Assembly (NCBI GenBank): GCA_903933995.1
Contig: CAIZMD010000693.1
Location: forward strand, 1 to 32,382
DNA length: 32,382 bases
Direction of reading: 5' to 3'
Source: an uncultured Bacteroidota bacterium
GTDB taxonomy: Bacteria > Bacteroidota > Bacteroidia > Chitinophagales > Chitinophagaceae
In this document: piece by piece, positions 6,714-26,709 of the stretch
Position numbering within the stretch: the first letter of the stretch is position 1
Layout of the letters: each line of letters starts with the position of its first letter
Notes under the pieces: model-generated
The model's database searches: none
Told to the model about the DNA's origin: nothing
What the model saw: only the letters and a program-made list of their open reading frames with translations
Translations under genes and position numbers: made by a program

Positions 6714-9575
6714 CTAAAATAATATGGTGTTTTTTATATTATACCCATCTGCTTTTATATTATACTTGTTTGAACTTTCATTATATCCAACACGCACTAT
6801 TTTTTTCTCACCCGGTAAAAGCGTAAAATAACCATCACTAAAATAAGCGGGCAAAACAATCATCCCTTTGTCATCTATTAAATTTAACTTGATGCCTATT
6901 GCAGGAGTAGTAGTATTATTTTGTATTTCAAATACAGTTATCCCTTTTTGGTTACTAATTTGTTTTCCTACAAGTGTAACTTTTGATAGTTGATTGAAGG
7001 CTTCATAATTGATAGTTGTAGAATTTGTTTTCCAGTAATCATTTTCAGCTAGAACTTCTTTTTTATTGTTTTCAATTTCAAGTCTGGCTAAATAGACTGA
7101 GGGTAAATTTACTGTTGAAAGATCAGGAGTAAATGCTTCTACTTTTTGATTAGTGCCAATACTTACTTGTTGAACTTTAGTATAGAATGCTGTCCCTTCA
7201 AGGTCATACAATTTTAATATTACTTTCAGATTTTGATAGCTTTCAAGTGCGCTATTGATCACAATTACTTTCTGATCATGCAAATTCATTTGAACATGCA
7301 AGGGCTCACATGCTTTCTTTGAACCATAATAGGAACCATGGGTTTCAAAATCCCATGAATAAGTTTGCCAGATCATACTTGGCCATGCTGGATGTGTCAT
7401 CCACAATAAAACACCACTGGTATTATTCCATAGTTTACTGTTCCATGCCTCAAAAATGGCCCTATGGCTTTCATAATTAATCAATTGAACTTTTTTATTA
7501 AAATCATCCAGTCCAATTACTTTTCCATATAAACTATCAACCGCACTCAAGTATCCTTTTAGATTTTGATTAGAAACTTCAGAATGAAGATCATGATAGT
7601 TCCAAACATCATTGATTGGCCATTGATCTTCTTTTCTTATAAACTTCTGGATGGTACTAGCTGTTGGAATAGAAAAGGTTCCAATTTCGGTAGTAAATCC
7701 ATCAACGTTCTTAGTAAAATATTCAGCTGGATTATTGATATACCTCCAAGCCCCACTTTGTCTAAGATTCATTTCACGCGAATTTCCATTATAGTGCCTG
7801 GTGCCATCTTCTATTGCTAGGATCTCAGAAATTTTATATTCCATACTAACTGGCGCATATCCTTCATTCCGCGGACACCAGATTGCTATAGAGGCATGGT
7901 TACGAAATCTTTTTACAACTTCTGTTATATTATCAAGTGTGAGTTGATCATTGTTTGGTGGTACATTATATCCTTCTGTTGACATCCAGAAATCATTCCA
8001 TACTAACATTCCATATTCATCGGCTAGTTCATAAAACACTTCTTCCGTGCATTCTCCTGTCCAATTTCTTATCATATTGTAATTGGCTTCTTTGTGCAAA
8101 CGAAAAGCTGGTTCCAGCCTTTCTCTTTCAACCCTTTTCATTGCATCATCCATTCCCCAATTACCACCTTTACAAAAGATTTTCTGACTATTTACGTTAA
8201 CCACCAAATAGGGATTATTTGAATCTGGAATAGTTTCAAAATGTTTTTCATCAACTCCCGTATAGATACTTGGAATAGTAAATCCCCCTGCCACTTTTAC
8301 GCGATTAATATTATCGAAAAGTGGTTTACCCTGAATGGCATTTGTAGGCTGATAACTAATGCGCCATTCCTTTTTACTTGGCGCATTTACCATTAGTTCA
8401 TAAGAAAATTCACGAACACCAAATCGAATATTTTTTTCATCTGAAATGACATTGTTATTTTCGTCAACTGAAAGTTTCAAATCATATAAATTTTGGCTTC
8501 CATAACCATTTGGCCACCATAGTTTTGGGTGTTGAAGATGTAAGGAAGGGATATTATCAGGAGAGAGTTTCACTATTTTCTGTTCACCGGGCATTAAATT
8601 GATAGGCAAAGAAAAATTCAAAGAACCTATCTTACCCTGAACAGTGCATTTTTTAATGACTGATGAATGATTCGTAACCAAGGCTTTGATGATTAATTTT
8701 GCTGAACTAGTATCCGGAAGTGGCAAATCAGTAATTACTTGAGGGTCTTGAATAGTAATAGCCCCAGTAAAATGAAGGGATACGTTTTGCCAGATGCCAA
8801 TATTTCTATCTCTAATGCCAGGCATCCAATCCCATCCTTCTGAAGCAATAAAAGTTGGTCCATCTAATGCCAGACTACCTCCGTTGGGCCCAGCACCTGC
8901 AATGGCTGATTGCTCGTGTGGAATGCCGGGATTAGGGGGTGGAAGAATATGTACAGCAAGAATATTTTTTTCACTTTTATGCAAATATTTGCTGACATTA
9001 AAATTTCCCCTTGAAAACGCACCATTAATAGAGCCTATACAAGTTCCATTTAGCCATATATCTGCATTATAATTGATTCCATCAAATTGAAGCCAAGTAA
9101 GTTTATCAAATGATTCAATGGGGCTGGCAAAACTGATTCGATACCACCAATCCTTTCGGCATAAACTATCTGGAATAGAAAGATTATTCAAGCCCACATA
9201 TGGATCAGGATATACACCTTGCTGTACTAAGGTAGTTAGCACTGTTCCTGGAACAGTAGCGTTATACCAGTTTTTAGTTTGATAGTTTTGATTGAAAATA
9301 GATTGTGTATTAGCAATAACTGTATTGCCATCTGTCATTTCCCAACCATTTTTTAGAATATAATCGTTCTGCTTATTCTTATGCAAAAGGGTAACTGGAA
9401 TATGTTTTGTTTTCCTGATGGCTATTTCAGGTTTACTAATTCCTACAGGCAAGGTATTGTCTGGCTGTTTTTGTGTTAATCCAAAGTTGGGTTTGTATTG
9501 AGCGTGCACAATAATTGATGCTATCACTAAACAACTTGAAATGATGCATTTAAGTTTATTAGAATTATTTTTCAT
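6714..9575 (-). CDS. Glycoside hydrolase family 2 protein (beta-mannosidase / exo-beta-glucosaminidase-like layout), secreted
   Basis: Signal peptide, then sugar-binding domain (WYRISFASPIESFDKLTWLQFDGINYNADIWLNGTCIGSINGAF). TIM barrel with 'IRNWTGECTEEVFYELADEYGMLVWNDFW', candidate acid/base Glu in 'IAIWCPRNEG' and candidate nucleophile in 'GFTTEIGTFSIPT'. Confidence 0.9.
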   Translation of the reverse strand: MKNNSNKLKCIISSCLVIASIIVHAQYKPNFGLTQKQPDNTLPVGISKPEIAIRKTKHIPVTLLHKNKQNDYILKNGWEMTDGNTVIANTQSIFNQNYQTKNWYNATVPGTVLTTLVQQGVYPDPYVGLNNLSIPDSLCRKDWWYRISFASPIESFDKLTWLQFDGINYNADIWLNGTCIGSINGAFSRGNFNVSKYLHKSEKNILAVHILPPPNPGIPHEQSAIAGAGPNGGSLALDGPTFIASEGWDWMPGIRDRNIGIWQNVSLHFTGAITIQDPQVITDLPLPDTSSAKLIIKALVTNHSSVIKKCTVQGKIGSLNFSLPINLMPGEQKIVKLSPDNIPSLHLQHPKLWWPNGYGSQNLYDLKLSVDENNNVISDEKNIRFGVREFSYELMVNAPSKKEWRISYQPTNAIQGKPLFDNINRVKVAGGFTIPSIYTGVDEKHFETIPDSNNPYLVVNVNSQKIFCKGGNWGMDDAMKRVERERLEPAFRLHKEANYNMIRNWTGECTEEVFYELADEYGMLVWNDFWMSTEGYNVPPNNDQLTLDNITEVVKRFRNHASIAIWCPRNEGYAPVSMEYKISEILAIEDGTRHYNGNSREMNLRQSGAWRYINNPAEYFTKNVDGFTTEIGTFSIPTASTIQKFIRKEDQWPINDVWNYHDLHSEVSNQNLKGYLSAVDSLYGKVIGLDDFNKKVQLINYESHRAIFEAWNSKLWNNTSGVLLWMTHPAWPSMIWQTYSWDFETHGSYYGSKKACEPLHVQMNLHDQKVIVINSALESYQNLKVILKLYDLEGTAFYTKVQQVSIGTNQKVEAFTPDLSTVNLPSVYLARLEIENNKKEVLAENDYWKTNSTTINYEAFNQLSKVTLVGKQISNQKGITVFEIQNNTTTPAIGIKLNLIDDKGMIVLPAYFSDGYFTLLPGEKKIVRVGYNESSNKYNIKADGYNIKNTILF

Positions 9576-9661: not shown

Positions 9662-11635
9662 TCATTCGTTTATTTTTTCATTAAAAGGAAACATAGGTAA
9701 TCCTTCTTGATTATACAAAGGGGCTGAAGGATTTGATTGCCACGCATACTGAATTCTTGTAGGTTTTTTTATGGCCTTAAGGTTTAATACAATTTTTTTT
9801 CCATAAACCTCAGCGGTGGTCCAACTCCATTTACCATTTTCATCTAATAATGCAAAACAAGAGTCAAGAGAGCTACCTTTTGATACAAATCCATTAGGTA
9901 CATTTCTAAACGATATAACCACTTTGTTCCCATCAAAGCTAGCATCTTTGAAAAGAGGACCCATGCCTACTACTTGCTGTTTGTAGGCTATTTCTTTTGC
10001 AGCCTCATAAAGTCTCCTCCCTACTTCTTGTTTGTTACTAGGGTGAATATTGAATTCGTCACCAATATCAATAGCAGAGGCAATTGCTACATGCTTTGTA
10101 TTTTTTAATGTTTTTTGTTGTGCATCTCTTAGTTCTGCCCATGCATCATTTGATAGCGGAACAAAAGAACGTTGTTTATAATTGGCTAATTGAACAAATA
10201 GAAAAGGCAATTCAGCATTTTGCCAAAGCGAACGCCAGTTATTAATCATCAGCGGCATCAAATTTTCGTACTGTTTTGCTTTACTAGTATTGTTTTCACC
10301 TTGATACCACAGAAATCCTTTAATACTAAATGGTATTAAAGGGTAGATCATAGAATTAAAATTAACCGTCTCTTTATTGTAATAGCCCTGCCACTGTGCT
10401 ACATCCGGCTCAATTTTATTGTGGTGTGTCCAAAAACCTGATAAGTCTATTTGATCCCCATCTAGGGCTTTAAAAAAACAGTTTGATGTTCTATCACCCA
10501 CATCGGCAATACCCCAGTTAACATACATTCTTATAGTTAAGATGTTTTTTCCTGATTTCAAGAGATTTAATGGAATATCAATTGACTTTGATTTGGCTTT
10601 AGAAACACCTGTTGCTATTTCTTTTTCATTCAAATAAACTATATCATTTTGGTCGCGCAATGGGAGCGTTAAGATCCATGACTTAGTAGCTTGCAAGTCA
10701 CTAATTTGAAAAGTTTTTCTTATCCAAATGATACCCCAAAAAGAGGGATATCCCATTTTCTCGCTACTTAACGGAAACAATGTTTTACGCCACTCAGCAT
10801 CATTAAAATCAACTTTATGAATACCTAAATCAATACCCCTAAAAGAGGTTCTTGCAATAGTTTCTCTATCAGCATTTGCTTTATTGCTGTTTATAACAAA
10901 ATCCTTCCAATGAGTTGAATCTTCGTCTCTTTTTTGTAACCCTTCTTTAAATTCATTCTGAGTCAATAAACTCTCTTTACTCATCCAAGATTCTATACTT
11001 GTAGCTCCTTTAGCAGAAACTATAATACCAACAGGAACCTTTTTATCAATATGTAATGAACGTGCGAAAAAATAGGCTACTGCTGAAAAATCAAGCACAT
11101 TTTGTGGGTTACATACTTTCCACTCTCTAGAAGTCATATAATCGAGTGGAATGATTGATGTATTATTATCAACTATACGAAATCGTATATCTGGATAGTT
11201 GGCATTTTTAATTTCTGTTTCTTTATTCAATAAATCGCTACTAATTAGATAGGCCATATTAGATTGCCCAGAAGCTAACCACACTTCTCCTAAAAGGATA
11301 TTAGTGAATATAATTTTTCTTCCTTCGGATTCAATTTCAAGTTGATGACTTTTACCGTCGGCTTTCATAGCAGGTAAAAATAAGGTCCAATTTCCTTTCT
11401 CATCAGCTGTTACCTGTTTTTGATATTTTGCAAATGAAACCGTTACAATGGCCTTAGCTTTTGCTTTACCCCAAATGGGCAGTTTTACCTTTTGTTGAAA
11501 TATGGCATTATTCCCGAATACGCCAGCAGGTTCTAATTGTGCAAAACAATATTGGCAAGTAATACAACTTACCATCACCAATGATATTAAATAAAGTGTA
11601 TGAAAATGAATAAAACGAAACTTTAAAGGGAACAT
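9662..11635 (-). CDS. Sialate O-acetylesterase-like (SASA/SGNH) carbohydrate esterase
   Basis: VFGNNAIFQQKVKLPIWGKAKAKAIVTVSF...LLGEVWLASGQSNMAYLI (nucleophile GQSN), 'IKGFLWYQGENNTSKAKQYENLMPLMINNWRSLW', 'DIGDEFNIHPSNKQEVGRRL'. A jelly-roll-like insert sits between the SASA halves. Confidence 0.92.
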   Translation of the reverse strand: MFPLKFRFIHFHTLYLISLVMVSCITCQYCFAQLEPAGVFGNNAIFQQKVKLPIWGKAKAKAIVTVSFAKYQKQVTADEKGNWTLFLPAMKADGKSHQLEIESEGRKIIFTNILLGEVWLASGQSNMAYLISSDLLNKETEIKNANYPDIRFRIVDNNTSIIPLDYMTSREWKVCNPQNVLDFSAVAYFFARSLHIDKKVPVGIIVSAKGATSIESWMSKESLLTQNEFKEGLQKRDEDSTHWKDFVINSNKANADRETIARTSFRGIDLGIHKVDFNDAEWRKTLFPLSSEKMGYPSFWGIIWIRKTFQISDLQATKSWILTLPLRDQNDIVYLNEKEIATGVSKAKSKSIDIPLNLLKSGKNILTIRMYVNWGIADVGDRTSNCFFKALDGDQIDLSGFWTHHNKIEPDVAQWQGYYNKETVNFNSMIYPLIPFSIKGFLWYQGENNTSKAKQYENLMPLMINNWRSLWQNAELPFLFVQLANYKQRSFVPLSNDAWAELRDAQQKTLKNTKHVAIASAIDIGDEFNIHPSNKQEVGRRLYEAAKEIAYKQQVVGMGPLFKDASFDGNKVVISFRNVPNGFVSKGSSLDSCFALLDENGKWSWTTAEVYGKKIVLNLKAIKKPTRIQYAWQSNPSAPLYNQEGLPMFPFNEKINE

Positions 11636-11663: not shown

Positions 11664-12551
11664 TTATTTACATAGTGAAGCTGCCCCCAAAATAATTGCA
11701 TTCTCGCCAAGGGTAGATATTTTCAAATTAACTTCATATCCTTTCTCCGTAATTTTTTCTAGGAAACTATCTTTAAATAGATGATATGCTTTAGAAATAT
11801 TCCCGCCCAAATAAAGTATATCTGGATTGGCTTCTGGATATATGGCAATGATAAAATCAGCCAAATTATGACCAAATTCCTTAAATATATTTTTACAGAC
11901 AATTCGTTTATTTAAATCAGAATCTGACAATTTAGTGGCAATATCTTTAACCGAAGTAATTAATTCACCAGTTAAAGAATTGTATCTGGTTGAAAACCAT
12001 TTTGATGATAAATAATCCTCTGCTATCCCCTCTTTAAAAGGCATATTCCAATATTGTGCATCCACTACCGTGCTATTTACTATTCTTGAAGACCCAAGCC
12101 CCGTTCCTAATGTTATTCCTACAGGGAATCTAGCAGACTCCATTGTATTACTAAATAATTCTCCTTTCAAAAAACATGCTGCGTCATTAGAGAAATAAAT
12201 ATTATTCGCATCTATATTCAGTTTGCTTGCTAAATATGATTTAATATTCAATCCAAAAAAATTATCAAATTTATTCTGATTTTGAATCCAACATATTCCT
12301 TTCTCAAAATCAAAGGGTGCTGGAAATGCAATACCAATTCTAATAATATCAATAGAACAATCACTAATAACAGATTGAATCAATTTGGACCATTTTTCAA
12401 CAATCTCCTCAGGATTACCATTTGAATCAAAGTCCAATCTTTTGGTGAATTCTAGCAAAACCTCTCGTTTATTTAAATCAACTGGGGCAATTGTTAGATG
12501 CGTTCCGCCAACATCAATTCCAATTACAATATTTTTTTTCATTGGATACAT
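11664..12551 (-). CDS. ROK-family sugar kinase-like protein (atypical)
   Basis: IGIDVGGTHLTIAPVDL (phosphate-1), IGIAFPAPFDFEKGICW, FSNDAACFLKGEL, 'VGITLGTGLGSSRIVNS', 'ILYLGGNISKAY'. The start overlaps the upstream lyase stop (TAATG); an alternative start is MKKNIVIG at 12542. Confidence 0.85.
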   Translation of the reverse strand: MYPMKKNIVIGIDVGGTHLTIAPVDLNKREVLLEFTKRLDFDSNGNPEEIVEKWSKLIQSVISDCSIDIIRIGIAFPAPFDFEKGICWIQNQNKFDNFFGLNIKSYLASKLNIDANNIYFSNDAACFLKGELFSNTMESARFPVGITLGTGLGSSRIVNSTVVDAQYWNMPFKEGIAEDYLSSKWFSTRYNSLTGELITSVKDIATKLSDSDLNKRIVCKNIFKEFGHNLADFIIAIYPEANPDILYLGGNISKAYHLFKDSFLEKITEKGYEVNLKISTLGENAIILGAASLCK

Positions 12552-14476
12552 TACATTTTAAGAGGTTGAAATATTACCTCAATTTTATCTGTCATTTTAC
12601 TTTCCAATTTAATTGCCAATTTATTAAACCCTTTATTTACAGAATTTTGGGTGAACGGAAATGTTTCACCTGGCAGATATGAAGCACCTAATATTTGAAA
12701 ACTAGCATTAGTAGGATTTTTAATAGTCACTGCCATCTGCTTGCCATTTAACTTTAACAATGCTGTCTTACCTTCCGATACTAATTCAATTTTTGCTTTA
12801 GTATGCATTGACCACCAAACAGTGGCTTTAGGTTTTGAAACAAAATCATCCTCTACGGTAATAATAGACGTTAACTTATTTAATTGAATTTTTCTAGAAT
12901 AAGAAGTAACATCACGAGAATAGCAATTAGCAAGATCTAGGGTATAGGAACTTTCATTAACTCCTATCAATTGACTTTTCAAAGTAGCTGAGCCTCTTTC
13001 ATTTTGATCTGGACTGGCAGATGGATTAAAGACTATGCAATTTTTACCTTCGGCCCTAAGTCTGTAAAAATGCCATCGCCCTGGAGCTGTTTGAGGCGAA
13101 TCAATCCCGGTGTAAGTAGGCAAGCTGGTTTTAGAAAAATAACCAGGATAGGTATAATTATCACTGCCTAGATTACCATATGCCCAAACTTCACCCAAAG
13201 CCTGAATATCAAAACTTCCAGCATCTAAATGCCCATGATTGGCAAAATTATTGCCGCCATGCATGGAAACGAATACCGCATTTTTATTCCATCCATCCCT
13301 TAGTGACATTACTTCTATACCATGAATATAATTTTCTAATGAATTAATTCTAGCTGTAGATTTTGTATAGACCATACCTGGATTGTAATACAACATATCC
13401 ATCCAATTCATTGTATTGGTTTGTTTACAAAGCTCGTATTGCATTTTTGCTAAGGCAGAATCGTTATTGTTTTTAGCAAACCAGAAAAAAGACTTGATCT
13501 TAGAATTCTTTAAAGGATCATCACCAATGCTTAAACTAGTTACAGGACCGGATACATAAGTAGGGAACCATCCTGTTTTTCTAAAGCCAGGAAATTGATC
13601 TAAGCCAAAAGCTGTTCCTAAAACCCGCTGCATACTTTCCATTGCAATAGTAGTATACATTAGTCCATATCCCCAATACATTAAACCTTCTTCACTTTGA
13701 CCATCCGGTTCAAAAGATTGAATATATTTAGGAAGTGCATTGATAGCCAAAGCAATGATTTCACTCATTCCTTCAGGGTCATCTTCATATAATGCTAAAG
13801 CTGCCATAATGATTCCACCATTGCAGATGCCGTTCCAATTATGATTAGCGGTTGACCACCATACTTTCTTTTGCAATTGCAGCTTACCTGGTATTAATAC
13901 ATGCTTAACTACTGCATCTTTCATCATTTTCCTTTCGGCCTCATTCATGAAATTATGTAGTGCATCATATGCTAATGCAAAATCAAATCCGCCTATTCCA
14001 GCATCTAAGAAATGACGATTGGCTCCCCAGTCAGGAAAATTACTCAACTGTATAAACTGATTGATTACTCTGCGAGCATAATTAGTATCCCCAGTTAGTT
14101 GATACATCATTATTAATGCTGGCAATTGAACAGCAAACTTATGAACCGAGGGCACCCTAAGTTTTGCATCATCTAGAAAGTACGTTAACAATGGTTGTTT
14201 CAAGACTTCATCAGCATCCCTCCTATTTTGCCTATATCCTATACGAATGAGAGAATCACCATTTTTATTCAACTGTATTAGCTTAGTAATATCCTCTTTT
14301 GAAAAAAACAATCTTGGATGAATATTTTTAACTAAAGAATTATCTAATCGCAGTTTAACCATTCCGGGAGTGACATCAAACTTATCTATCCCACTGATTT
14401 GACAAAAAGGTTCTTTACATAAAATGAGTAAAAGAAAAAATAAAAAATGTTTACGTCTAATATTCTTAAAGATCAT
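12551..14476 (-). CDS. Heparinase II/III-like polysaccharide lyase (Sec signal, likely periplasmic)
   Basis: HPRLFFSKEDITKLIQL; WGANRHFLDAGIGGFDFALAYDAL; 'NHNWNGICNGG'; 'YWGYG'; 'NFANHGHLDAGSFDIQ' (Heparinase_II motif); C-terminal beta-sheet region with 'ITVEDDFVSKPKATVWWSMHT'. Confidence 0.88.
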   Translation of the reverse strand: MIFKNIRRKHFLFFLLLILCKEPFCQISGIDKFDVTPGMVKLRLDNSLVKNIHPRLFFSKEDITKLIQLNKNGDSLIRIGYRQNRRDADEVLKQPLLTYFLDDAKLRVPSVHKFAVQLPALIMMYQLTGDTNYARRVINQFIQLSNFPDWGANRHFLDAGIGGFDFALAYDALHNFMNEAERKMMKDAVVKHVLIPGKLQLQKKVWWSTANHNWNGICNGGIIMAALALYEDDPEGMSEIIALAINALPKYIQSFEPDGQSEEGLMYWGYGLMYTTIAMESMQRVLGTAFGLDQFPGFRKTGWFPTYVSGPVTSLSIGDDPLKNSKIKSFFWFAKNNNDSALAKMQYELCKQTNTMNWMDMLYYNPGMVYTKSTARINSLENYIHGIEVMSLRDGWNKNAVFVSMHGGNNFANHGHLDAGSFDIQALGEVWAYGNLGSDNYTYPGYFSKTSLPTYTGIDSPQTAPGRWHFYRLRAEGKNCIVFNPSASPDQNERGSATLKSQLIGVNESSYTLDLANCYSRDVTSYSRKIQLNKLTSIITVEDDFVSKPKATVWWSMHTKAKIELVSEGKTALLKLNGKQMAVTIKNPTNASFQILGASYLPGETFPFTQNSVNKGFNKLAIKLESKMTDKIEVIFQPLKM

Positions 14477-14486: not shown

Positions 14487-16292
14487 TTATTGCAATAGGA
14501 CTGACCAATTACCTGAATAATAGGCTATGTCAACCTTTTTCAATAATGCTACATTATTGTTAATGCGAGTTTGATACCTAAGGTCTTGATAAATATAAAA
14601 ATTGAGCCAAAAAGAATAATCATACTTCTCGTGCAAAGAATGTGGCTGTTTATAAAATGAATACCAATTTGTATTTATTTTATACTTTTCAGCCACTTTT
14701 AAAGCAAGCAAAGCACGGCTCCAATTATTATTAGTAATTGTTTTAAAAAGCGTTGAATAATCAGCATAGCGCATTTTGGCAGTTTCAATAACTGATTGCC
14801 TATCGTTTATATTCATTTTGATGAGAGATACCGAATCTTCAAAAAAATGATCTCCATCTAGGTCATACAGTATTTGATCTGCAAAACCATTTCCATCAGT
14901 GTCTTCATATTTTACACTTGCAAATTTTTTAGGCATTAACTGCAATCTTTTCCGATTCCATTTTTCATAAAACCCTCCAAACCCTTGGTAGGAAAATGCG
15001 GTTTGATCTATTCTCCATCCACCCCATTCAGCTCCAAATAGATGAATACGGCCATCGAAGGCTCCAATATACAATCTCCCTTTTCCTGAATTATCCATAT
15101 CAAATTCGCCCCTGTCTCCTATTGCATCAGACTGTCCATTATTATCAAGGCCACCACCCTCTATCCCTGTTTTCCAAAAATCAAGTGGATCATAAAATTC
15201 AACTCTTTCCCATCTATTGCAATCATCATCTTCATCAAATATTAACCTGCATTGCTGCCAATCACCTTTTTTAAAAATCATTTGATACGCCGTATCTCTA
15301 TCAGGATAAAAAAGTGTGTCAATATTGCGCCATCGGCTATCGTACATAAAACTATTTGCTTGAGAAAGACCTTTTAATCCTTTGAAATGATGGCCCTGGT
15401 CATCATAAGCAAATCCTTTTCCTTTAAAAAGCAAACTCATGTCAAAATCAAATTCATTTCCTGCGCTGTTATCATTATCCAAGTCCCAAGTGACAGCAGA
15501 ATAGTCAATTCTCTTTGTAAATTTGACATCAAAATTTGAATCAATATTTCCAAAACCGTTTTTGGAATTATCAATTTTATCCCTGAATTCGGGAGTATCA
15601 ACCAGTCTTATAGCCCATTCCGTTAGTCCATCCCGGTCTGTATCATAAAAAATGAATGGGTTCTCCCAATTATACCTTAGATCACTGATTCTAAAACTGG
15701 AAGCATGCATTTTTAGAAAAGTAGAATTGCCGCTATAATCTTTGTAAAAGTTAGCATGGCCATAATGTTCCCAAGCCCTCATCATAATACTATTCCAATC
15801 AATATAATGCATTATCTGGTCTTTGTCTACGTCTAACACATACATAAAATCGGCGCCCCAATCAAAATAATTTCTAACTTTTGTTCCTGCATTATTTACA
15901 ATTAATTGAATATCTGCTTTACCATCATGGTCTTCATCAATCCAATCAATACTAAAATCAAAAGGTCCAGCAAATATGCTATCTCTGTTCTTATCAATTA
16001 ACAAGCAATCATTATCAGTATCTCCCTCTATATCTCCCTGCTTCATATCATCGTCATCATCTATCCAAAGAATGGGAATTGAGTCATTCAACATCGCTTT
16101 TAAGATGTCTGGGTCTCCGTCTTTATCTAAATCTAAATAATCAATTTTAGAGATTATTGGAACTATTCTAAATGGTATTAACTGTGTATTAGAATTCCAA
16201 TAAGGAATATTGTTTTTTTGAGAGCATACACTTGATGAATAAAAAATAATTATCAAAAAAACAACCCCATTAATTAAATACTTTTTTACCAT
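14487..16292 (-). CDS. Secreted Asp-rich protein of unknown function with repeated calcium-loop-like motifs
   Basis: ORF 14487..16373; internal Met at 16292 (MVKKYLINGVVFLIIIFYSSSVCSQ) gives a signal peptide and a 1-nt gap from the sulfatase stop. Repeated loops: DLDKDGDPD, DTDND, DEDHDGKAD, DVDKD, DTDRDG, DLDND, DEDDD, DNNGQSD, DMDNSG, DTDGNG, DLDGD. Confidence 0.75.
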   Translation of the reverse strand: MVKKYLINGVVFLIIIFYSSSVCSQKNNIPYWNSNTQLIPFRIVPIISKIDYLDLDKDGDPDILKAMLNDSIPILWIDDDDDMKQGDIEGDTDNDCLLIDKNRDSIFAGPFDFSIDWIDEDHDGKADIQLIVNNAGTKVRNYFDWGADFMYVLDVDKDQIMHYIDWNSIMMRAWEHYGHANFYKDYSGNSTFLKMHASSFRISDLRYNWENPFIFYDTDRDGLTEWAIRLVDTPEFRDKIDNSKNGFGNIDSNFDVKFTKRIDYSAVTWDLDNDNSAGNEFDFDMSLLFKGKGFAYDDQGHHFKGLKGLSQANSFMYDSRWRNIDTLFYPDRDTAYQMIFKKGDWQQCRLIFDEDDDCNRWERVEFYDPLDFWKTGIEGGGLDNNGQSDAIGDRGEFDMDNSGKGRLYIGAFDGRIHLFGAEWGGWRIDQTAFSYQGFGGFYEKWNRKRLQLMPKKFASVKYEDTDGNGFADQILYDLDGDHFFEDSVSLIKMNINDRQSVIETAKMRYADYSTLFKTITNNNWSRALLALKVAEKYKINTNWYSFYKQPHSLHEKYDYSFWLNFYIYQDLRYQTRINNNVALLKKVDIAYYSGNWSVLLQ

Positions 16293-16293: not shown

Positions 16294-17820
16294 TTAATTA
16301 TTAAATAAATAATCAGGGAATTTTGATTCTTTAGAGCCAAAAGGATTTCGTTTATTAGATTGCTTACCTTCATCTTTGTTCAAAGGCAAATACATACCTT
16401 TTGTTTGTTTTAGCAATTCAAATAAATTATTATTCATTTTTTTCACTATAGGTGAAAAGCTCAATTCATTAATAAGGTTTTTTGATTCAAATGGATCAGA
16501 AAGAATATCGTATAGCTCATCGGTATCCCAAATTCCCTGATAATGAATATACTTATATTGATTAGTCCGTAATGCATGCATGGTAGGTGTTTGAGGATAA
16601 TTCCTTTCCCAATAATATTCATATAATAATTCATTCCGCCAAGGGATAGAGATTCCACTGAGTTGCGGAAGGAAACTTTTTCCATCCATATGTGAAGGCG
16701 CTTTTAAGCCTGCAGCATTTAATAGCGTTGGTGCAATATCAATATTTGCTACAATATCCTTAATTAATGTACCTGGTTTGATAATATCTGGGCAATAAGC
16801 AAGCATTGGAACACGCATTGACTCTTCATAGGCGTTACGTTTATCAATTAATCCATGTTCTCCAAATAAGAATCCATTATCGCCCATATAAATAATTAAT
16901 GTAGACTCAAGTAAACCATTTTCTTTTAAATATTTCATAATACTGCCTACAGATTCATCTACCCCTTTTAACGTTCTTGCGTAGCGTTTATAGTATTCTT
17001 CAATATCTAAAGTAGTATGGTATGGAAAATCTATCCCATGCCATGAATTACGTTGATTTTGAACCCACATAGGTTGATTAGAGTGAGCGTCCGGTTCCAT
17101 AGTAATTGGCTTTTTAAAACTATCATTAGGATGATCATTTTTAAATCGGTCCGGTGGAATGAAATCGGCATGAACCCCTTTATGTGAGAGATATAACATA
17201 AAGGGCATTTTCTTATCAACTGATTTTAACCAATCAATTGCATAGTCAGTTAGTTCATCAGTTATATACCCTTTTTGTTTTGTTTTTACTCCATTAACGT
17301 TCAATCCATTTTCATCAGGCAAATAACTACCCTGACCAGGAAATGAAATCCATTGATTAAATCCACGTTGAGGATTTGCACTTTCTCCACCCATATGCCA
17401 CTTTCCTACAAATCCAGTTTTATAACCAACTTTCTGAAGATATTGAGCAAAAAACACTAATTGTTGGGAAACTGGTTTATTATTATCTATTACTTGATGT
17501 TTATGTGCATATAATCCAGTTAAAATAGAGGCTCTAGAGGGAGAACACAATGAAGTAGTAACAAATGCATTGGGTAAATAGGCTCCCTCTTTTGCTATTT
17601 TATCTAGATTTGGCGTTTCTATAAACGTTTGAGTATGTAAAAAACCAATTGCATCGTATCTATGATCATCAGTTAAAATAAAAATGATGTTTCTTTGTTT
17701 ACTATTTGTAATTCTTTCTACTACAATGGAAGCATTTTTTTGTTGAACAACTGCATTTTGGGATAATCCTATTACACTCTTAATTATAAGTAAAATAAAG
17801 TAAGCAGTTTGCTTTTTCAT
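16294..17820 (-). CDS. Type I (formylglycine) sulfatase, secreted
   Basis: NIIFILTDDHRYDAIGF, 'TTSLCSPSRASILTGLYAHKHQV' (C-x-P-x-R motif), 'GKWHMGG', 'IYMGDNGFLFGEHGLIDKRNAYEESMRVPMLAYCP', 'NIDIAPTLLNAAG'. Confidence 0.96.
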   Translation of the reverse strand: MKKQTAYFILLIIKSVIGLSQNAVVQQKNASIVVERITNSKQRNIIFILTDDHRYDAIGFLHTQTFIETPNLDKIAKEGAYLPNAFVTTSLCSPSRASILTGLYAHKHQVIDNNKPVSQQLVFFAQYLQKVGYKTGFVGKWHMGGESANPQRGFNQWISFPGQGSYLPDENGLNVNGVKTKQKGYITDELTDYAIDWLKSVDKKMPFMLYLSHKGVHADFIPPDRFKNDHPNDSFKKPITMEPDAHSNQPMWVQNQRNSWHGIDFPYHTTLDIEEYYKRYARTLKGVDESVGSIMKYLKENGLLESTLIIYMGDNGFLFGEHGLIDKRNAYEESMRVPMLAYCPDIIKPGTLIKDIVANIDIAPTLLNAAGLKAPSHMDGKSFLPQLSGISIPWRNELLYEYYWERNYPQTPTMHALRTNQYKYIHYQGIWDTDELYDILSDPFESKNLINELSFSPIVKKMNNNLFELLKQTKGMYLPLNKDEGKQSNKRNPFGSKESKFPDYLFNN

Positions 17821-17868: not shown

Positions 17869-19971
17869 CTAATTACTTGTTGTCCAAGACTGCAATCCAA
17901 TTAATGGTTGAACTACTGTTGAAGTTGATTTAACAAAATCTACTCTCACTGTTACTGGGGTTGAAGCAGCCAAGCCTGTTAGTTTTATTTGCAACTTTCC
18001 ATACCATTGATTAATAGAGTTCTTTCCTGCCATTATACCTGAAAATATTCCAGCCGTTTCTGTTAAATAATTAATTTGAGAAGTAGACCGATCTATTTTT
18101 TGAAAAACTGCAGTAGAGGGGGATTGAATAATGGCAAAAAATGTTTTTCCATTTTTTGACATAGTTGCGGTTTTCCCATTGGCACTAATGATAAGACCGT
18201 CAGTTGCTGGGCTATGCATTAACCAATAAACTGTTGAATTATTAATAGAAGGATTGAATTCATCCTGCACTGTAATTACGCCAGTAGTTCTATTTAACTT
18301 AATACCTCTTTTATATGAAGAAACATCTTTGCTATAGCATGTTTGTAGATCTGCAACATAAAAACCGCCAACGCCATCATTTGCTTTTGACAACATTGTT
18401 GCATTACCCAGAGGATTTTGTTCTGGTCTAGCATCGGGGTTAAATACAAGACAATTCTTCCCTTCTGTTCTAACTCGATAATAATAATATCTTCCACTAC
18501 TAGTAGCTAAATTGGTTGGCGAAGCAGTATATAAAGGTGCTGTAGTGTTAAAATAATCCGAAGGATATGGTGACTCTAAACCTAAATTTCCTTGTGCCCA
18601 GGTTTCTCCGATACCTTGAACAAAAAAACTACCAGCGTCTAAATGACCATGACTGGCATTATTATCGCCACCATGCATACCAACATACAAGGCATTATCA
18701 TTATTTGTATTTTCCTGTAAATACATATATTCAATCCCTTTCAAATATCCTTCTAATGGAAGATTAGTTGTACTTCCTTGTGAAACCAGTGATTTATCAT
18801 AGAATAGCAAGTCAGTCCAACCATTCATCTTTTCTGCATCTAGCGCATTTACAGATAAACAAGCATCGTAATGAGCTTTTGCCAAAGCGGCATTTTTGAA
18901 GTATTTAGAAAACCAGAAATAGGATAAAAATTTATTGGTTTTTCCAACATATAAATAATCATCTCCTATTGTGGCTGTTCCAACTGGTCCAGACATATAA
19001 TAAGGAAACCATCCAGTTTTTGCAAACCCCGCAATTTCGGCTAACCCGTAAGTTGTACTTAAACATCTTTTTAAACTTTCAAAAGCTAAAAAGGTGTTCG
19101 TCAAACCGTAACTCCAATAAGACATTCCTTCCTCACTTGCGCCATCAGGTTCTAAAGACTGCATGTATTTATTGATTCCATTGGCAGATTGAGCAATAAT
19201 GTTTGCATTAAATGTTGAATCAAATTCATATCCGGCAAGTGCTCCTATAATCATACCACCATGGCAGATTCCGTTCCAATTATCATTGGATAAATACCAT
19301 TTCCAAACTCCGGTATTGGTTTCAATTTGTGTTTTGCCGGGTTGCAAAACAAAATTTTTAATGCCAGTATACAACCTAAGCCTTTGAGTTGCAGTTAGGT
19401 AGTCGTATAACCCATCCAAAGCTATACCAGCTCCTTTTGCAGCAATTCCTGCATCCAAAAAATGTCTATTTGCTCCCCAATCAGGCCAAGAACACATAGC
19501 ATCTAATTGCTGCCAACAGCGTGCTGCATATCTACTATCCTTTGTAAACTGATAGGCAAGTACCAAGTATGGAAGTTGATCATTAGAAAAAGTATGAATA
19601 TTGCTGATTCTTAATCCTGCTGCGTCTAATCCATAAGTTAAAATGGGAGATGACAATAATGCATTGGCTTTAGCAATAATATTGTCATAAGTAGCTTTAG
19701 CAAAAGGATCAGACTGAACCAATATTTTAATTTGATCAATGTCTGCAGTAGAAAACAGTAGTCTGGGGTGAATGTCTTTCATCTTCATTCCAGTAAAGCA
19801 TTCAGAAATTGTAGCTGGGCTTACAGGAATTTTTGCAGAACTACTAAAAACCCCTCCTCCATTTGAAGGTGGGGGTGTGATAGTTGAATTAGTTGCAGGT
19901 GAAGAGTCCTTCTTATTACATGCTATTATAACTAAAGAGGATACTATAAAAACATATAAAATATTTTTCAT
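17869..19971 (-). CDS. Heparinase II/III-like polysaccharide lyase, lipoprotein (likely surface-anchored)
   Basis: Lipobox in MKNILYVFIVSSLVIIACNKKDSSPA, then HPRLLFSTADIDQIKIL; WGANRHFLDAGIAAKGAGIALDGL; 'NDNWNGICHGG'; 'YWSYG'; 'NNASHGHLDAGSFFVQ'. Clear paralog of the product of 12551..14476. Confidence 0.88.
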   Translation of the reverse strand: MKNILYVFIVSSLVIIACNKKDSSPATNSTITPPPSNGGGVFSSSAKIPVSPATISECFTGMKMKDIHPRLLFSTADIDQIKILVQSDPFAKATYDNIIAKANALLSSPILTYGLDAAGLRISNIHTFSNDQLPYLVLAYQFTKDSRYAARCWQQLDAMCSWPDWGANRHFLDAGIAAKGAGIALDGLYDYLTATQRLRLYTGIKNFVLQPGKTQIETNTGVWKWYLSNDNWNGICHGGMIIGALAGYEFDSTFNANIIAQSANGINKYMQSLEPDGASEEGMSYWSYGLTNTFLAFESLKRCLSTTYGLAEIAGFAKTGWFPYYMSGPVGTATIGDDYLYVGKTNKFLSYFWFSKYFKNAALAKAHYDACLSVNALDAEKMNGWTDLLFYDKSLVSQGSTTNLPLEGYLKGIEYMYLQENTNNDNALYVGMHGGDNNASHGHLDAGSFFVQGIGETWAQGNLGLESPYPSDYFNTTAPLYTASPTNLATSSGRYYYYRVRTEGKNCLVFNPDARPEQNPLGNATMLSKANDGVGGFYVADLQTCYSKDVSSYKRGIKLNRTTGVITVQDEFNPSINNSTVYWLMHSPATDGLIISANGKTATMSKNGKTFFAIIQSPSTAVFQKIDRSTSQINYLTETAGIFSGIMAGKNSINQWYGKLQIKLTGLAASTPVTVRVDFVKSTSTVVQPLIGLQSWTTSN

Positions 19972-19981: not shown

Positions 19982-21781
19982 TTACCAACCAGGATTTTGA
20001 GTAATCAATCCATTACTTTTAGAAATCTCTGTAAAAGGGATAGGATACAAATACATTTTAGTAGTAAATACCCTTGGTTCCACTGTAAATCTTTGATAAG
20101 AAAAAGTTGATACTCCTGTTGATGTAACTCTCATGCCAGCGAGCGGAATTGATTCAGTCTGTTCTGCAATTTTCCATCTGCGAACATCAAAAAAACGATG
20201 CTCTTCAAATGCAAGTTCTACCCTTCTTTCATTTCTTATTCTATCTCTTAACTGAGCTTGAGATATTCCAGCAACAATAGCTGGCAAACCTGCTCTAGCC
20301 CTCACTAAATTAATAGCCTCTCGAGCAGATCTAACTGCAACTGAAGTACCTAAAACAGGTTTTGTTTCAGGTCCGAATGCTTCATTTGCCGCCTCAGCGT
20401 AATTTAAAAGTACTTCTGCAAAACGCATTAAAATCCATGCTTTTGCTCTTGTACCTCCCAAAGAAAGATTATAATTTTCAACACAAAACTTTCTTAAATA
20501 GTATCCTGTTGTAGTAGCTCCGTCTTTTGCACCAATTGCATCCGCCCCACCAGTAAAAGATTGAACAGTTCTAACTGTATTATCGGTATTTAATCCCATA
20601 GTCGACCCATTCAACACTACAATCCAACCTAAGCGTTGATCTCTGTATGCATATGGATTATTAGGATCATAACCTGACGCTGGATCGGAAATGGGCAATC
20701 CATTGGTACGCATTTCAAAAGCATCTAATAAATTTTGTGAAGGACAAGTAGCCCCTTCGCCACCATTTACCATTCCAACTGGATAATTAGCTCTTTCGAA
20801 TGTATTTGAATTAAGTTGAAATGGTCTTGTAAGAATGATACCTGAATTTATCCCTTTTCTTGGAGTCAAATTATTGGTGGTATTCTGTGCCATGAAAAGA
20901 TCTTTATATGCTGCATTCAAAAAGTTTACATGGGCACAATTGGGATCTGTAAAAATTTGCTGTGCTGCTTCAGCTGCTTTTTGCCAAAGTGCTATGTTAC
21001 CACTGGCATTATTTAAAGGACTCGCAGCATACAATAATGCTCGTAATTTTAAAGCAACTGCTGCTGGCTTTTCTATTCTTCCCAATCTATTATTATCTGA
21101 TCCAGCATCTCCTCTTCCAATAGTTTGACCTGCAGGGATTCCGTAATTGATATAATGATTGGTCAAGTCTAAATAAGAAGAATCACATTGTTCAACAATA
21201 TAATCAACGCACTGCTGGAATGAAGATCTTGAAACTCCAAACGCTTCATTTTCGTTAATGACATTTTTTATAATAGGTACACCCCCATATCGCTTTATCA
21301 ACTCCATATAGTAATACGCGCGTAAAAATCTAACTTCTGCTCTTAGTTTTATAAAATCGTCTACATCTAACACATAATTAGCCTTATTATTGATGGTGTC
21401 AACAACTAACAATTTTCTAAAATCTACTGTTTTTTCTAAAAACAAATTAGCGTGGCGTATGCCTCTATAATAAGTTGCCCATACATCATCCGGATTAGTA
21501 AATGGGTCCCAGGCTCCGGCATTAAAACGTTGTAAATTATTAAAGCGAGCATAATCTGCTTCATCTGATCCAGCAGCCAACAAGGCGTTTCCACCAAATC
21601 TATTCATTTGAGGTAGATAATCATATACACCCATTCCTAATGCTTTCAGGTTAGTAGGGCCAGAATTCAGGAATAGATCCTCACTAAAATTTTGTTGTAT
21701 TTGTGTATCTAAAAGATTCTTCTTACAAGCTGTAGAAAGCAAACTTGTAATTGCAATAATCAGGAGAATATTTTTTCTCAT
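19982..21781 (-). CDS. SusD/RagB-family nutrient-binding outer membrane lipoprotein (second pair)
   Basis: Lipobox MRKNILLIIAITSLLSTACKKNLLDTQ; 'EVRFLRAYYYMELIKRYGGVPII'; 'RIRNERRVELAFEEHRFFDVRRWK'; C-terminus 'NGLITQNPGW'. Confidence 0.97.
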   Translation of the reverse strand: MRKNILLIIAITSLLSTACKKNLLDTQIQQNFSEDLFLNSGPTNLKALGMGVYDYLPQMNRFGGNALLAAGSDEADYARFNNLQRFNAGAWDPFTNPDDVWATYYRGIRHANLFLEKTVDFRKLLVVDTINNKANYVLDVDDFIKLRAEVRFLRAYYYMELIKRYGGVPIIKNVINENEAFGVSRSSFQQCVDYIVEQCDSSYLDLTNHYINYGIPAGQTIGRGDAGSDNNRLGRIEKPAAVALKLRALLYAASPLNNASGNIALWQKAAEAAQQIFTDPNCAHVNFLNAAYKDLFMAQNTTNNLTPRKGINSGIILTRPFQLNSNTFERANYPVGMVNGGEGATCPSQNLLDAFEMRTNGLPISDPASGYDPNNPYAYRDQRLGWIVVLNGSTMGLNTDNTVRTVQSFTGGADAIGAKDGATTTGYYLRKFCVENYNLSLGGTRAKAWILMRFAEVLLNYAEAANEAFGPETKPVLGTSVAVRSAREAINLVRARAGLPAIVAGISQAQLRDRIRNERRVELAFEEHRFFDVRRWKIAEQTESIPLAGMRVTSTGVSTFSYQRFTVEPRVFTTKMYLYPIPFTEISKSNGLITQNPGW

Positions 21782-21819
21782 AACATTAATTGTTATAATA
21801 ATCGTTTAATAAAATATAA

Positions 21820-24705
21820 TTATAATTTAAGTGTGAATCCGAAATTGAAACTTTTCATTGGAGGATGTACAAAAGTGTTCATGATCTCAGGATCTACATT
21901 TATTTCATTAATATCATCTATAGTAAATAAATTATTGCCACTAAAGAAGAGTCGAACTGCATTCATTCCAGCTTTACTAGTAATCTTTTCCGGAATAGTA
22001 TAACCGATTTCTAAATTTTGAATTCGAACAAAGGAACCATTCCTTTGCCATAAAGTAGAAGCGCGATAATTATTATCATTTTGTATAGTAGTTAAGCGAG
22101 GGAATTTAGCATTATCACCCCTTGCAGGCGTCCAATAATTGTCTCTTACCCAAGGAGTAGGTTTTACACCTCCATTCAAAAATGGAATGATCATATTATT
22201 ATCCAATAAAGAAACAGTTCGCTTAGCTGCACCTTGAACAGTTACATTGAAATCAAACCCTTTATAATCTCCTCCCATATTAAAACCATAAAATATTTGG
22301 GGGAGAGCAGTATATCCAAAAGCTTTTCTATCACGATTATCAATCACACCATCACCATTCTGGTCTTTGTATTTAATGTCACCAGGTACAACAGTTCCAA
22401 ATAGTTGGGTAGGGCTTGCACTGATATCTGCTTTGTCTTTAAAAAATCCAAGAAATTCCAATACGAAGGGTTGATTAATTGGATTTCCTTTTGCAGCTAA
22501 ATATGGATCTGATGGAGTAGGTTCTGCAATATCAACTATTTGATTTTTAGTAAATGAAATATTACCGCCTGCATAAAAATTAAAAGCTCCAAATTTCTCT
22601 TTATACATTACTTCAATCTCAGCTCCAGTAGTTTTTGTTTTTCCTTTGTTTACACTGTTAAATGAAGCTCCCATAAGAGAAGGAGTATAGCTACTTGGGT
22701 TAAGGAAAATATCACTTCTATTTTCTTTAAAATAATCTACTGAAATTGATAAACTCTTGAAAATAACTGCTTCAAAACCAATATTAAATCTGGTAGCTTT
22801 TTCCCAAGTTACATTAGGGTTTGCTAAAGCACTTTGGTTAAACATTGGTGCATTTACACCTAAAGCATTACCAATTAAATAATTGCCAGTACCATTATAA
22901 TATTGATTGTAGATGAATCTTCCAGCATTTCCTGTATTGTCATTACCCAACAAACCAGCAGACGCTCTTAATTTAAGAAAATTAATAACATGCTGATTAG
23001 ACATAAACTTTTCATTACTCATTACCCAACCGGCAGATAATGCAGGGAAAACACCAAAACGATTGCCTTTTGGAAAATTTTCAGATCCACCATATGAAAC
23101 GTTTAAATCGGCAAAATAGCGTTGATTATAATTATAACCTACCCTACCCATAAAACGTTGCTTTGCATAGGGCATATCAGAACCATCACCATTGTATTTT
23201 TCTTGAAAATAAGTTAGTGATGAATAAATGCTATGCTTCCCAATTTTCTTTTCGTATTCTGCTCCACCTAATAAACTTGTTCTATTAAACTGATTACCAT
23301 TGCCCTGAGTTATAGTAAAGTTGTTATCCACCGTTCCTCGTGTAAAAATGTCGTACGGAATTATTCCAGGAGTAGTAACAAGGTCTAAACGCGGCACCAC
23401 TTCATCATAATATAAGGGTCGGGTTTTGTTATAGGTATCAAAGAAAAAATTGCTAAAGTTTAATTGCCAGAAAAATTTGAGGCCTTTTGTAATAAAGTCC
23501 ATATTGCCAATCAACTTAACATTAGCATCAATTGTTCTATCATTAATTGATTGAAATCCACGCTGCAAAATTGAAGCAGTAGGATTATCGGCGTAACCTT
23601 GTGCACCACCCCATTTTCCATTCTCTGTTTTAACGGCATATGGAGTAAATAATGTCATTGATCTCCATAAAGTATTTTCAGGCGTGTTAGGAAAATACTT
23701 ATCCATCATAGTTGCGCGAAGATTTGCCTGAGCGCTTAAAAAAGAGGTGATATTTACATTAAAGTTTGCACGTAAATTATATCTTTTAAGATTGTAATTG
23801 GAATTACTTGTTCTGTCATTATCAGTTCCCGCATATAACCCTTTATAATCGGCATAACCCATTGCCAAAAAATACTTTACATCCTTTTTACCACCGTTAA
23901 ATGATAAGGTATAATCTTGACTTAGTGCATTTGGACGAACTACTTGATCATACCAATTAACATCTGGGTATAAATAAGGAAATTGTTGATTTTTGAAGAA
24001 ATTGACAATTGAATCATTTCTAAAATAACCATCACGAATGGATCTTCCATCATTCACAATGCCAACATTGAATAATTCAGCATAGTCCCCGTTATTTACT
24101 ACTTCAGGAAGATATCTTGCAGAATGAATTCCAAAACGTGAACTAAAATTAATATTTGTTTTTTTTGATTCTGCACCTCTTTTAGTTGTGATTACTACAG
24201 CGCCATTTGCAGCATCCATTCCAAATTGTGCCAAAGCTGCTGCATCTTTTAATACAGTTACACTTTCAATTTCTTCAGGAAGTATTGTGAACCAATTAGA
24301 TTCAAACCCATCTACAAGTACCAATACACTATTATCTTGAAAGGTTTGTCTTCCTCTTACAAACAATGAAGGGTAATCTGTATTACCAGGTGACCCTCCA
24401 GATTGCTGAACATACAGACCACTTAATTGTCCAAATAAAGTATTACTTAAAAATGGTGTATTTATCCGTTTTAATGTTTCTCCGTTTACAGAAGAAACAG
24501 AACTTGTAATATATTTCCTTTGAACACGGTTAGCAAAGGGCACTTGAATAGTTTGATCTATAAAACTATTTTTTGAATTATTCCCATTCACTATTAGGGT
24601 ATCATTCTGTACCTGAGCTATGCTTTGTGCATCAACAGTATTTAATAATAGCGTAGAAAATAAAGGAATAAACAAAAAACGTTGCATATTGTAATAAAAA
24701 GCCAT
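21820..24705 (-). CDS. SusC/RagA-family TonB-linked outer membrane protein (second pair, short N-terminus)
   Basis: Plug 'GQLSGLYVQQSGGSPGNTDYPSLFVRGRQTFQDNSVLVLVDGFES...ESVTVLKDAAALAQFGMDAANGAVVITTKRG' and a TonB-dependent barrel ending 'PPMKSFNFGFTLKL'. No CarboxypepD_reg-like domain before the plug. Confidence 0.96.
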   Translation of the reverse strand: MAFYYNMQRFLFIPLFSTLLLNTVDAQSIAQVQNDTLIVNGNNSKNSFIDQTIQVPFANRVQRKYITSSVSSVNGETLKRINTPFLSNTLFGQLSGLYVQQSGGSPGNTDYPSLFVRGRQTFQDNSVLVLVDGFESNWFTILPEEIESVTVLKDAAALAQFGMDAANGAVVITTKRGAESKKTNINFSSRFGIHSARYLPEVVNNGDYAELFNVGIVNDGRSIRDGYFRNDSIVNFFKNQQFPYLYPDVNWYDQVVRPNALSQDYTLSFNGGKKDVKYFLAMGYADYKGLYAGTDNDRTSNSNYNLKRYNLRANFNVNITSFLSAQANLRATMMDKYFPNTPENTLWRSMTLFTPYAVKTENGKWGGAQGYADNPTASILQRGFQSINDRTIDANVKLIGNMDFITKGLKFFWQLNFSNFFFDTYNKTRPLYYDEVVPRLDLVTTPGIIPYDIFTRGTVDNNFTITQGNGNQFNRTSLLGGAEYEKKIGKHSIYSSLTYFQEKYNGDGSDMPYAKQRFMGRVGYNYNQRYFADLNVSYGGSENFPKGNRFGVFPALSAGWVMSNEKFMSNQHVINFLKLRASAGLLGNDNTGNAGRFIYNQYYNGTGNYLIGNALGVNAPMFNQSALANPNVTWEKATRFNIGFEAVIFKSLSISVDYFKENRSDIFLNPSSYTPSLMGASFNSVNKGKTKTTGAEIEVMYKEKFGAFNFYAGGNISFTKNQIVDIAEPTPSDPYLAAKGNPINQPFVLEFLGFFKDKADISASPTQLFGTVVPGDIKYKDQNGDGVIDNRDRKAFGYTALPQIFYGFNMGGDYKGFDFNVTVQGAAKRTVSLLDNNMIIPFLNGGVKPTPWVRDNYWTPARGDNAKFPRLTTIQNDNNYRASTLWQRNGSFVRIQNLEIGYTIPEKITSKAGMNAVRLFFSGNNLFTIDDINEINVDPEIMNTFVHPPMKSFNFGFTLKL

Positions 24706-24730
24706 AAAGAATCGTTTTATTAATTAATTT

Positions 24731-26689
24731 TTACCAACCTGGGTTTTGGACAATAAACCCTTTATTCACTTCATTTTGAGCAAAAGGGAAAAAATACATT
24801 TTATCTTCCCAAACTCGCGACTCAAAAGTTTCAATACGATAGGACAATAAATTATCATTCGCCAAACGTTGTGCGGGTGTTAATGCTGTAGTTGGATTTA
24901 CATATGGTGTACTACTATTTTCATACAAGAAAATTCTAGTAAACTGACCTTTCATTACGCCGTCATTGCTAGCAATTTTCCATCTTCTTACATCAAAAAA
25001 CCGATGCTCTTCTCCATATAATTCAACTGATCTTTCACGTTGAATATATTCTCTCGTTTTTGATTTATCACCATAAATAGAAGCATAAGTGGAATTACCC
25101 GGAGCTAAATCTGGCAATCCCCCTCTTTTTCTAATTACGTTAAGTGCAGTAAATATTTCTGCATTCGATGGGTTGATTTCATTTAGTGCTTCAGCATAAC
25201 CCAAATAAAATTCTGCTAAACGGAAAATAGGCCAATAGAAATTAGCGGTACCATTAACTTGATTAACTAAATTAATAAACTTCTTTTGATGTATTCCATT
25301 AGGTATTCCATTTCCTATTAAAGCAGTACCTGCTCCAATTTGAACAGTATTCCCTGTTAATCCTTTTTGTTTGTAAAGAAACTTAGCTGTATCACTCCCT
25401 CCTTGCGCAGGCATCAACCCAGTATTGGTGTAGGCAGACCCTGGCCACCATGCAACTGCTTGGAAACGTGGTTCCATTCGTTTCATGATTGATTTTAGTT
25501 GTGTAAAAGTTCCATCCGTTGGAATACTCACATCATTACCATTTACATCCCTAAATGTTTTAGTGATAAAATTCATTGGAAGGGCCATTACAGTATTACC
25601 CCAGGAAAAATATATAGGGCAACACCATCTTACTACATTAGCCCCACCAGCTTGTTGCCCATGAGATTTATCATAAAACAACAATTCTTTATTTCTTGGA
25701 TCAAGTGCTGCACCTGTAGCATAGTTATAACTTTCACTTTTTCCTAGTGACGCATCATCTAATAAAGAATACCCATTGCTTAGGGCCCAGTCCAAAACAG
25801 TTTTATGAGCATTCGCAGCCAAAATCCAACGATTAGGATCTGCGGAACCCATACAAACAAGGCTATCATTTGCACTTGAAACTGGAGGTGTATTGGTATT
25901 AACCAATGGACTAGCTGCCCACAATAAAGTAACCGCTTTAAGTGAAAGTGCTACGCCCTTATTTACTCTTCCAATATCAGAAGCCGGAAAATTATCTGGT
26001 AAATTAGGAATAGCTTCATCACAGCTTTTAATAATAAAATCAATGGTAGATTTTAAACTTCTTCTATTACCTGAAGGAATTACCTGAGCTTGGTTAACTC
26101 CATTAACTTCGTTGATTTGAACTATCGGCGTTTGATCAATGATTGGAATACCTCCATATCTAATCATCGCTTCATAATGCATTAAAGCTCTAAGTAGTTT
26201 TGCTTCTGCAATAGTTTGATCTCTAAGTTGGGCTGTCCAATTAATTGAACCAGTATTTCCAATAGGAACTTTACTTGCATTTTCAATATAAATGGATGCA
26301 TTTCGCATGCCAATTGTTACTCTATTATATGAAAATTCATCTTGAAATGAAGGGCCCCAAGTACCAGCATTAAATGCATTAGCTCTTCCTCCAGTACCAA
26401 ATTGATCGCCCTCATCACTAGCTGCTAATAATAGTCCATCCACACTACCTGCATCACTTAATCCAGATCCTCCATCACCTGTAGGAAATCCATTGATAAC
26501 ACAAGTTGCATATACATTCCAGAGAGCACGTTGTGCCGCATCTGGAGTGGTAAATACCGAATCAACCGTAATGATACTACCACTTGGTTGCTCAAGAAAC
26601 CTTTTACAAGAAGTATTGAACAATAAAATACACAACACAAGTACAGGTGCAACTTTAAAGTAAAATTTCATTTTAATATATTTTGGCAT
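24731..26689 (-). CDS. SusD/RagB-family nutrient-binding outer membrane lipoprotein (first pair)
   Basis: Lipobox 'VLCILLFNTSCKRFLEQPSG'; 'EAKLLRALMHYEAMIRYGGIPII'; 'REYIQRERSVELYGEEHRFFDVRRWK'; C-terminus 'KGFIVQNPGW'. The true start may be the internal Met at 26671. Confidence 0.97.
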   Translation of the reverse strand: MPKYIKMKFYFKVAPVLVLCILLFNTSCKRFLEQPSGSIITVDSVFTTPDAAQRALWNVYATCVINGFPTGDGGSGLSDAGSVDGLLLAASDEGDQFGTGGRANAFNAGTWGPSFQDEFSYNRVTIGMRNASIYIENASKVPIGNTGSINWTAQLRDQTIAEAKLLRALMHYEAMIRYGGIPIIDQTPIVQINEVNGVNQAQVIPSGNRRSLKSTIDFIIKSCDEAIPNLPDNFPASDIGRVNKGVALSLKAVTLLWAASPLVNTNTPPVSSANDSLVCMGSADPNRWILAANAHKTVLDWALSNGYSLLDDASLGKSESYNYATGAALDPRNKELLFYDKSHGQQAGGANVVRWCCPIYFSWGNTVMALPMNFITKTFRDVNGNDVSIPTDGTFTQLKSIMKRMEPRFQAVAWWPGSAYTNTGLMPAQGGSDTAKFLYKQKGLTGNTVQIGAGTALIGNGIPNGIHQKKFINLVNQVNGTANFYWPIFRLAEFYLGYAEALNEINPSNAEIFTALNVIRKRGGLPDLAPGNSTYASIYGDKSKTREYIQRERSVELYGEEHRFFDVRRWKIASNDGVMKGQFTRIFLYENSSTPYVNPTTALTPAQRLANDNLLSYRIETFESRVWEDKMYFFPFAQNEVNKGFIVQNPGW

Positions 26690-26709
26690 TGTACAATCGT
26701 TTTAAAATT

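Follow-up and report, generated by a model that had tools for sequence, protein, structure and literature searches.

A conserved family of secreted Asp-loop proteins with a proposed role in polysaccharide breakdown

Analysis of a 32,382-nucleotide stretch of bacterial DNA (hereafter the window, always meaning this whole stretch) led us to a 601 aa protein encoded at 14487-16292 on the minus strand (ORF call and translation), which, judged from its sequence, is a member of a coherent, strongly conserved and unnamed family of secreted Asp-loop proteins. It belongs to none of the known families tested. With modest confidence, we favor its interpretation as a calcium-stabilized catalytic protein of an undescribed family. 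Repeatedly found beside glycosaminoglycan-lyase-type enzymes and sulfatases, or fused with them, it is a good candidate for an activity so far missing from the degradation of acidic and sulfated polysaccharides. Should its fold truly be absent from the PDB, the protein would also show that calcium loops can be assembled into a protein in a way not seen before.

Protein architecture and predicted structure

The start codon is the ATG at 16292 (minus strand); starting instead from the in-frame ATG further upstream, at 16373, would make the gene run into the sulfatase gene. The gene begins immediately past this sulfatase gene and stops 10 bases short of the following lyase gene, a spacing as in a tight operon arrangement. 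At the N-terminus, a signal peptide without a clear lipobox is predicted at aa ~1-25 (16218-16292, minus strand), with its type judged by eye and a helix predicted at residues 2-24. By the same visual criterion, most relatives likewise carry SPI-like signal peptides, while L069 looks like a lipoprotein. One family member (L081:2833-4905) ends in a type IX secretion (T9SS) sorting tail, its sequence implying export past the periplasm in some hosts. The signal peptide is followed by the Asp-loop beta region at aa ~46-490 (14823-16157, minus strand), delimited by structure prediction and motif conservation and made up of conserved strand-loop-strand elements whose loops lie at aa 54, 78, 91/100, 119, 154, 217, 270, 353, 398, 464, and 477. 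Alignment and predicted structure place a helical segment at the C-terminus (aa 509-600; 14493-14768, minus strand), in which W524, Y557, and W562 are near-invariant. The mature protein consists of 13.5% Asp, 3.5% Trp, 5.7% Tyr, and 6.9% Phe. An earlier sequence-only reading had described a secreted protein with a signal peptide, sequence rich in Trp, Tyr, and Phe between the loops, and a second, alpha-helical module at the C-terminus; all three descriptions agree with the prediction of beta structure to ~490 and helices at 509-600, the helix at 2-24, and the measured composition.

With overlapping starts included, we count 18 instances of the motif D-x-[DN]-x-[DNSG], compared with a mean of 5.3 (SD 2.3, maximum 14) in 2000 shufflings of the mature sequence. 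Across 63 relatives, the motif shows 92-100% retention at twelve positions (54, 58, 78, 91, 100, 119, 217, 270, 353, 398, 464, and 477), of which 54 and 58 form a single loop; retention amounts to 75% at position 154 and 65% at 282. Several of the conserved loops fall between predicted beta-strands. The claim of at least ten DxDxDG-like loops is thereby corroborated, and every loop on the original list was found. The list itself needs some correction: the motif at 251 is retained in only 8% of the 63 relatives, and DNNGQSD at 383 falls outside the pattern, its D383 and D389 being invariant all the same. Pairwise comparison of eight blocks, mostly of low probability and with a best value of 50%, did not support a clean ancestral repeat.

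The structure prediction and Foldseek search that had been suggested along with the sequence-only reading were carried out. AlphaFold2 models of the window protein (pLDDT 89.7, pTM 0.88) and of a KSB1 relative (pLDDT 89.0, pTM 0.88), which are not fully independent as their input alignments have most rows in common, both show beta-strands and loops to approximately residue 490 followed by a helical C-terminus. Neither model had a Foldseek match in the PDB at E<=0.001, and the window protein model had none among viral models. The best weak hits were teneurin/Rhs shells, DDB1, IFT-A, and OspA with probabilities of a few percent; because their TM-scores are around 0.1, these model-based hits are no evidence of kinship. 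Propellers appeared among some low-ranking hits. A new fold is no more than a possibility raised by the models. The boldest reading, in our estimation possible rather than probable, is that the family comprises carbohydrate-active enzymes of a new kind whose fold, itself new and built on calcium, has as its catalytic body a meander of beta-hairpins clamped by Asp loops.

Family distribution, conservation, and searches for known families

A single scan of species genomes in GTDB yielded 118 confirmed relatives, and 80 of these were retained. The main alignment comprises 63 members sharing 45-90% identity with the query over most of its length, with a mean column identity of 53% and ~75 invariant columns. 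Family members are found mostly in Bacteroidota, in addition to KSB1 and Ignavibacteriota MAGs; one contig with a member is labeled Thalassovita, possibly through mis-binning. Members are uncommon, occurring in 2 out of 299 sampled Bacteroidota genomes (the window's own genome counted among them), and 14 member genomes hold one or two copies each. An outlier with 34% identity (L083:1483-3270), representing a divergent subfamily, keeps 59 of the 73 near-universal polar or aromatic positions, including W166, W174, Y186, K194, W209, E210, R229, Y296, R322, R360, and E362 as well as R363, R394, E396, H417, E422, and Y462. The gene of this outlier adjoins an unannotated 451-aa gene without Pfam match. 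C96 and C358 are invariant in the 63 members and both missing from the outlier, a joint pattern of presence and loss that is consistent with a disulfide between them.

Sequence comparison further suggests stronger conservation of the target than of the genes around it in the operon. In loci holding both genes, the target homologue resembles the window's copy more closely than the partner does in 15/15 and 12/15 loci for the two PL35-type lyases, 10/11 for the sulfatase, 9/10 for the GH2 enzyme, and 8/9 for the esterase, figures that are biased insofar as loci were picked by similarity to the target and partner genes may be paralogues.

The query gave no Pfam match up to E=1, no NCBIfam match, and no PDB sequence match, and profile searches of the PDB with alignments of 63 and 55 members found nothing. 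The initial impression that no known family signature can be recognized was thus borne out in these libraries. Its likening of the loops to those of EF-hands or dockerins was not, since the corresponding Pfam profiles matched neither the query nor any of the 63 relatives. The suggested resemblance to FG-GAP loops is weak: FG-GAP_3 is matched at low significance by 21/63 members (best 2.4e-4), but the query itself matches no FG-GAP family profile. Membership in PL11, judged by similarity to RGL11_C, was rejected, as hhalign against one PL11 sequence from the same genome reached a probability of 2.8% and aligned one 24-residue Asp-loop stretch. The target likewise has no sequence or fold match to PL35 or other heparinase II/III-like lyases, which are matched only by its neighbors and fused partners. 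Searches of a plasmid collection yielded no match and of PHROGs no meaningful one, and no paper describing the family was found in a literature search of incomplete coverage.

Operon context and neighborhoods of relatives

Within the window, all genes discussed here lie on the minus strand. The target is located between a lyase homologous to PL35 glycosaminoglycan (GAG) lyases (12551-14476; best PDB match 8khv, 2.4e-53) and a sulfatase with Sulfatase and SGSH_C Pfam domains (16294-17820), whose PDB matches include mucin-desulfating and GlcNAc-6-sulfatases; a second PL35-homologous lyase is encoded at 17869-19971 (8khv, 6.5e-43). Both heparinase II/III-like lyases match PL35 broad-spectrum GAG lyases (8khv, 8khw, 9o3q) above other solved structures, while Pfam assigns them only DUF4962, plus a weak Hepar_II_III_C for one. 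The operon further contains a ROK family sugar kinase (11664-12551; Pfam/NCBIfam profiles), a SASA-type carbohydrate esterase (9662-11635; Pfam), and an exo-beta-D-glucosaminidase-like GH2 enzyme (6714-9575; Pfam, PDB match 2vzt, 1.3e-59). Two SusC/SusD pairs occupy 19982-30102 (SusD 19982-21781, SusC 21820-24705, and SusD 24731-26689 by Pfam/NCBIfam and BLAST relatives; SusC-like 26710-30102, assigned from position and BLAST relatives). A FecR-type anti-sigma factor (30156-31295) and an ECF sigma factor (31357-32016) together span 30156-32016. The placement of the target within a lyase/sulfatase operon is hence confirmed, and the gene set would suit a glycan that contains uronic acid and hexosamine and may be sulfated. 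Elsewhere in the same genome, we noted a PL11 rhamnogalacturonan lyase (L102, contig C518) and eight matches to the GH88 family that exceed the cut-off. The latter weaken the idea that the target is the missing unsaturated glucuronyl hydrolase of the operon.

Among the 41 loci of relatives that are 20 kb or longer, BLAST with the window copies detected a SusC or SusD homologue in 26. The other neighbors of relatives varied, comprising sulfatases, GH2, GH3, GH29, GH43, GH78-type/rhamnosidase-like, GH88, GH92, GH95, GH123, and PL8 enzymes as well as esterases. In view of this variety, the association with lyase and sulfatase is real for the query neighborhood and no rule for the family. A dedicated PL35-lyase partner as a family-wide rule was rejected, many loci holding other enzymes, with lyase absence being uncertain for loci on short contigs. 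Loci associated with a lyase do not form one clade (4 changes versus a shuffled mean of 5.3). The neighborhood survey for heparinase II/III-like lyases, proposed with the sequence-only reading, gave no family-wide rule, and the restriction to sulfated uronate glycans is unsupported, considering the GH2 to GH123, PL8, and esterase neighbors listed above. The best evidence for a shared pathway is provided by single-frame fusions in five relatives, three to heparinase II/III-type lyases and two to sulfatases (L027, L033). Two of the lyase fusions are of PL35 type (L016, with an esterase also in frame, and L019), and L050 is fused to another heparinase II/III-like lyase, assigned from sequence. 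These natural fusions strengthen the early assumption of a role in the same degradation pathway.

Several neighbors deserve mention on their own. Two conserved families without Pfam match recur, one of 417 aa in 14 loci (L015:6648-7901) and one of 171 aa in 6 loci (L035:7262-7777). In Parabacteroides, a polysaccharide pyruvyl transferase-like gene lies close to the target homologue (L044:7591-8859, with an equivalent in L039), which is unusual for a degradation locus.

Proposed function, rival readings, and known systems

We propose that the secreted, probably periplasmic protein catalyzes one step of polysaccharide degradation, with glycan lyase or glycosidase as the likeliest activity. In this model, Asp loops located where consecutive beta-hairpins turn would take up calcium and clamp the hairpins into a scaffold. 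The substrate site would be built from Trp, Tyr, Arg, Glu, and His residues that are near-universal in the family and lie outside the loops, with the C-terminal helices capping or buttressing it. The protein would share its substrate, an imported glycan, with the two PL35-type lyases, sulfatase, esterase, glucosaminidase-like GH2 enzyme, and sugar kinase. Whereas the family, its conservation, the fusions, the operon context, and the confident models lacking a PDB match are observed, calcium binding, active-site location, catalysis, and substrate are inferred. The following observations favor this reading: ~75 invariant columns across 63 members, 59/73 polar or aromatic positions surviving in the 34%-identical outlier, Asp loops kept in 92-100% of members, greater similarity to relatives than the operon partners show, the single-frame fusions (L016, L019, L050 to lyases; L027, L033 to sulfatases), an operon in which degradative enzymes accompany SusC/D and a sigma/anti-sigma pair, and a signal peptide without obvious lipobox, accompanied in one member by the T9SS tail. 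Against catalysis, no known enzyme is similar in sequence or fold, so that catalytic residues are unassignable by homology; the enzymes next to relatives vary widely, which is odd for one substrate-specific reaction; the partner comparison carries the bias of locus choice and possible paralogues; and the strong conservation would also suit a binding or structural protein.

The main rival reading is non-catalytic: a glycan-binding or scaffold protein that depends on calcium, holds oligosaccharides for lyases and sulfatases, and is fused to them as a binding module in some species. We regard it as possible rather than probable. The aromatic-rich sequence, fusion to enzymes as is typical of binding modules, the company of many different enzymes, and the lack of a catalytic family match all speak in its favor, whereas binding modules do not usually reach 600 aa with ~75 invariant columns, the obvious lipobox of surface glycan-binding lipoproteins is missing from most members, and Arg/Glu/His conservation persists even in the outlier. 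The variety of contexts and the fusion to two unrelated enzyme classes would also fit a structural or folding helper without glycan contact, such as a calcium-dependent periplasmic chaperone or carrier for the operon enzymes; with no similarity to known chaperones, and a conserved Trp/Tyr/Arg set that appears closer to sugar sites than to protein-binding surfaces, we deem this improbable. A further alternative concerns the fold, not the function, and is compatible with a catalyst, a binder, or a helper: the protein might be a divergent calcium-blade (integrin/FG-GAP-like) beta-propeller, as in PL11 rhamnogalacturonan lyases, masked by irregular blades. The weak FG-GAP_3 hits, the strand-DxDxDG-strand elements, the single stretch aligned with PL11, and the low-ranking propeller hits point this way. 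We doubt it, given that neither of the two confident models matches anything in the PDB at E<=0.001, that the top weak hits include no calcium-blade lyases, and that the PL11 probability is 2.8%.

Among known systems, calcium-blade beta-propellers (integrin FG-GAP, PL11 rhamnogalacturonan lyase, PilY1, fungal lectin) share with the target the repeated succession of beta-strand, Asp loop, and beta-strand; the calcium blade is characterized by Dx[DN]xDG loops between strands (Rigden et al. 2011, PMC3123361). The target differs by its irregular spacing, extra helical C-terminus, and lack of a significant PDB fold match, and it fails the profile comparison with PL11. PL35 GAG lyases (GAGases) combine an (alpha/alpha)6 toroid with a beta-sheet and Mn2+ (PMC11262172, PMC12088678). 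They have no common sequence or predicted fold with the target, yet share its operon and, in L016 and L019, its reading frame. Surface glycan-binding proteins of Sus-type loci resemble the target in being secreted, aromatic-rich, and encoded in SusC/SusD loci. Such proteins are defined by features such as a lipoprotein signal peptide and a gene directly after SusD. The target is highly conserved, shows no lipobox that is obvious by eye, and is usually encoded at other positions than directly after SusD.
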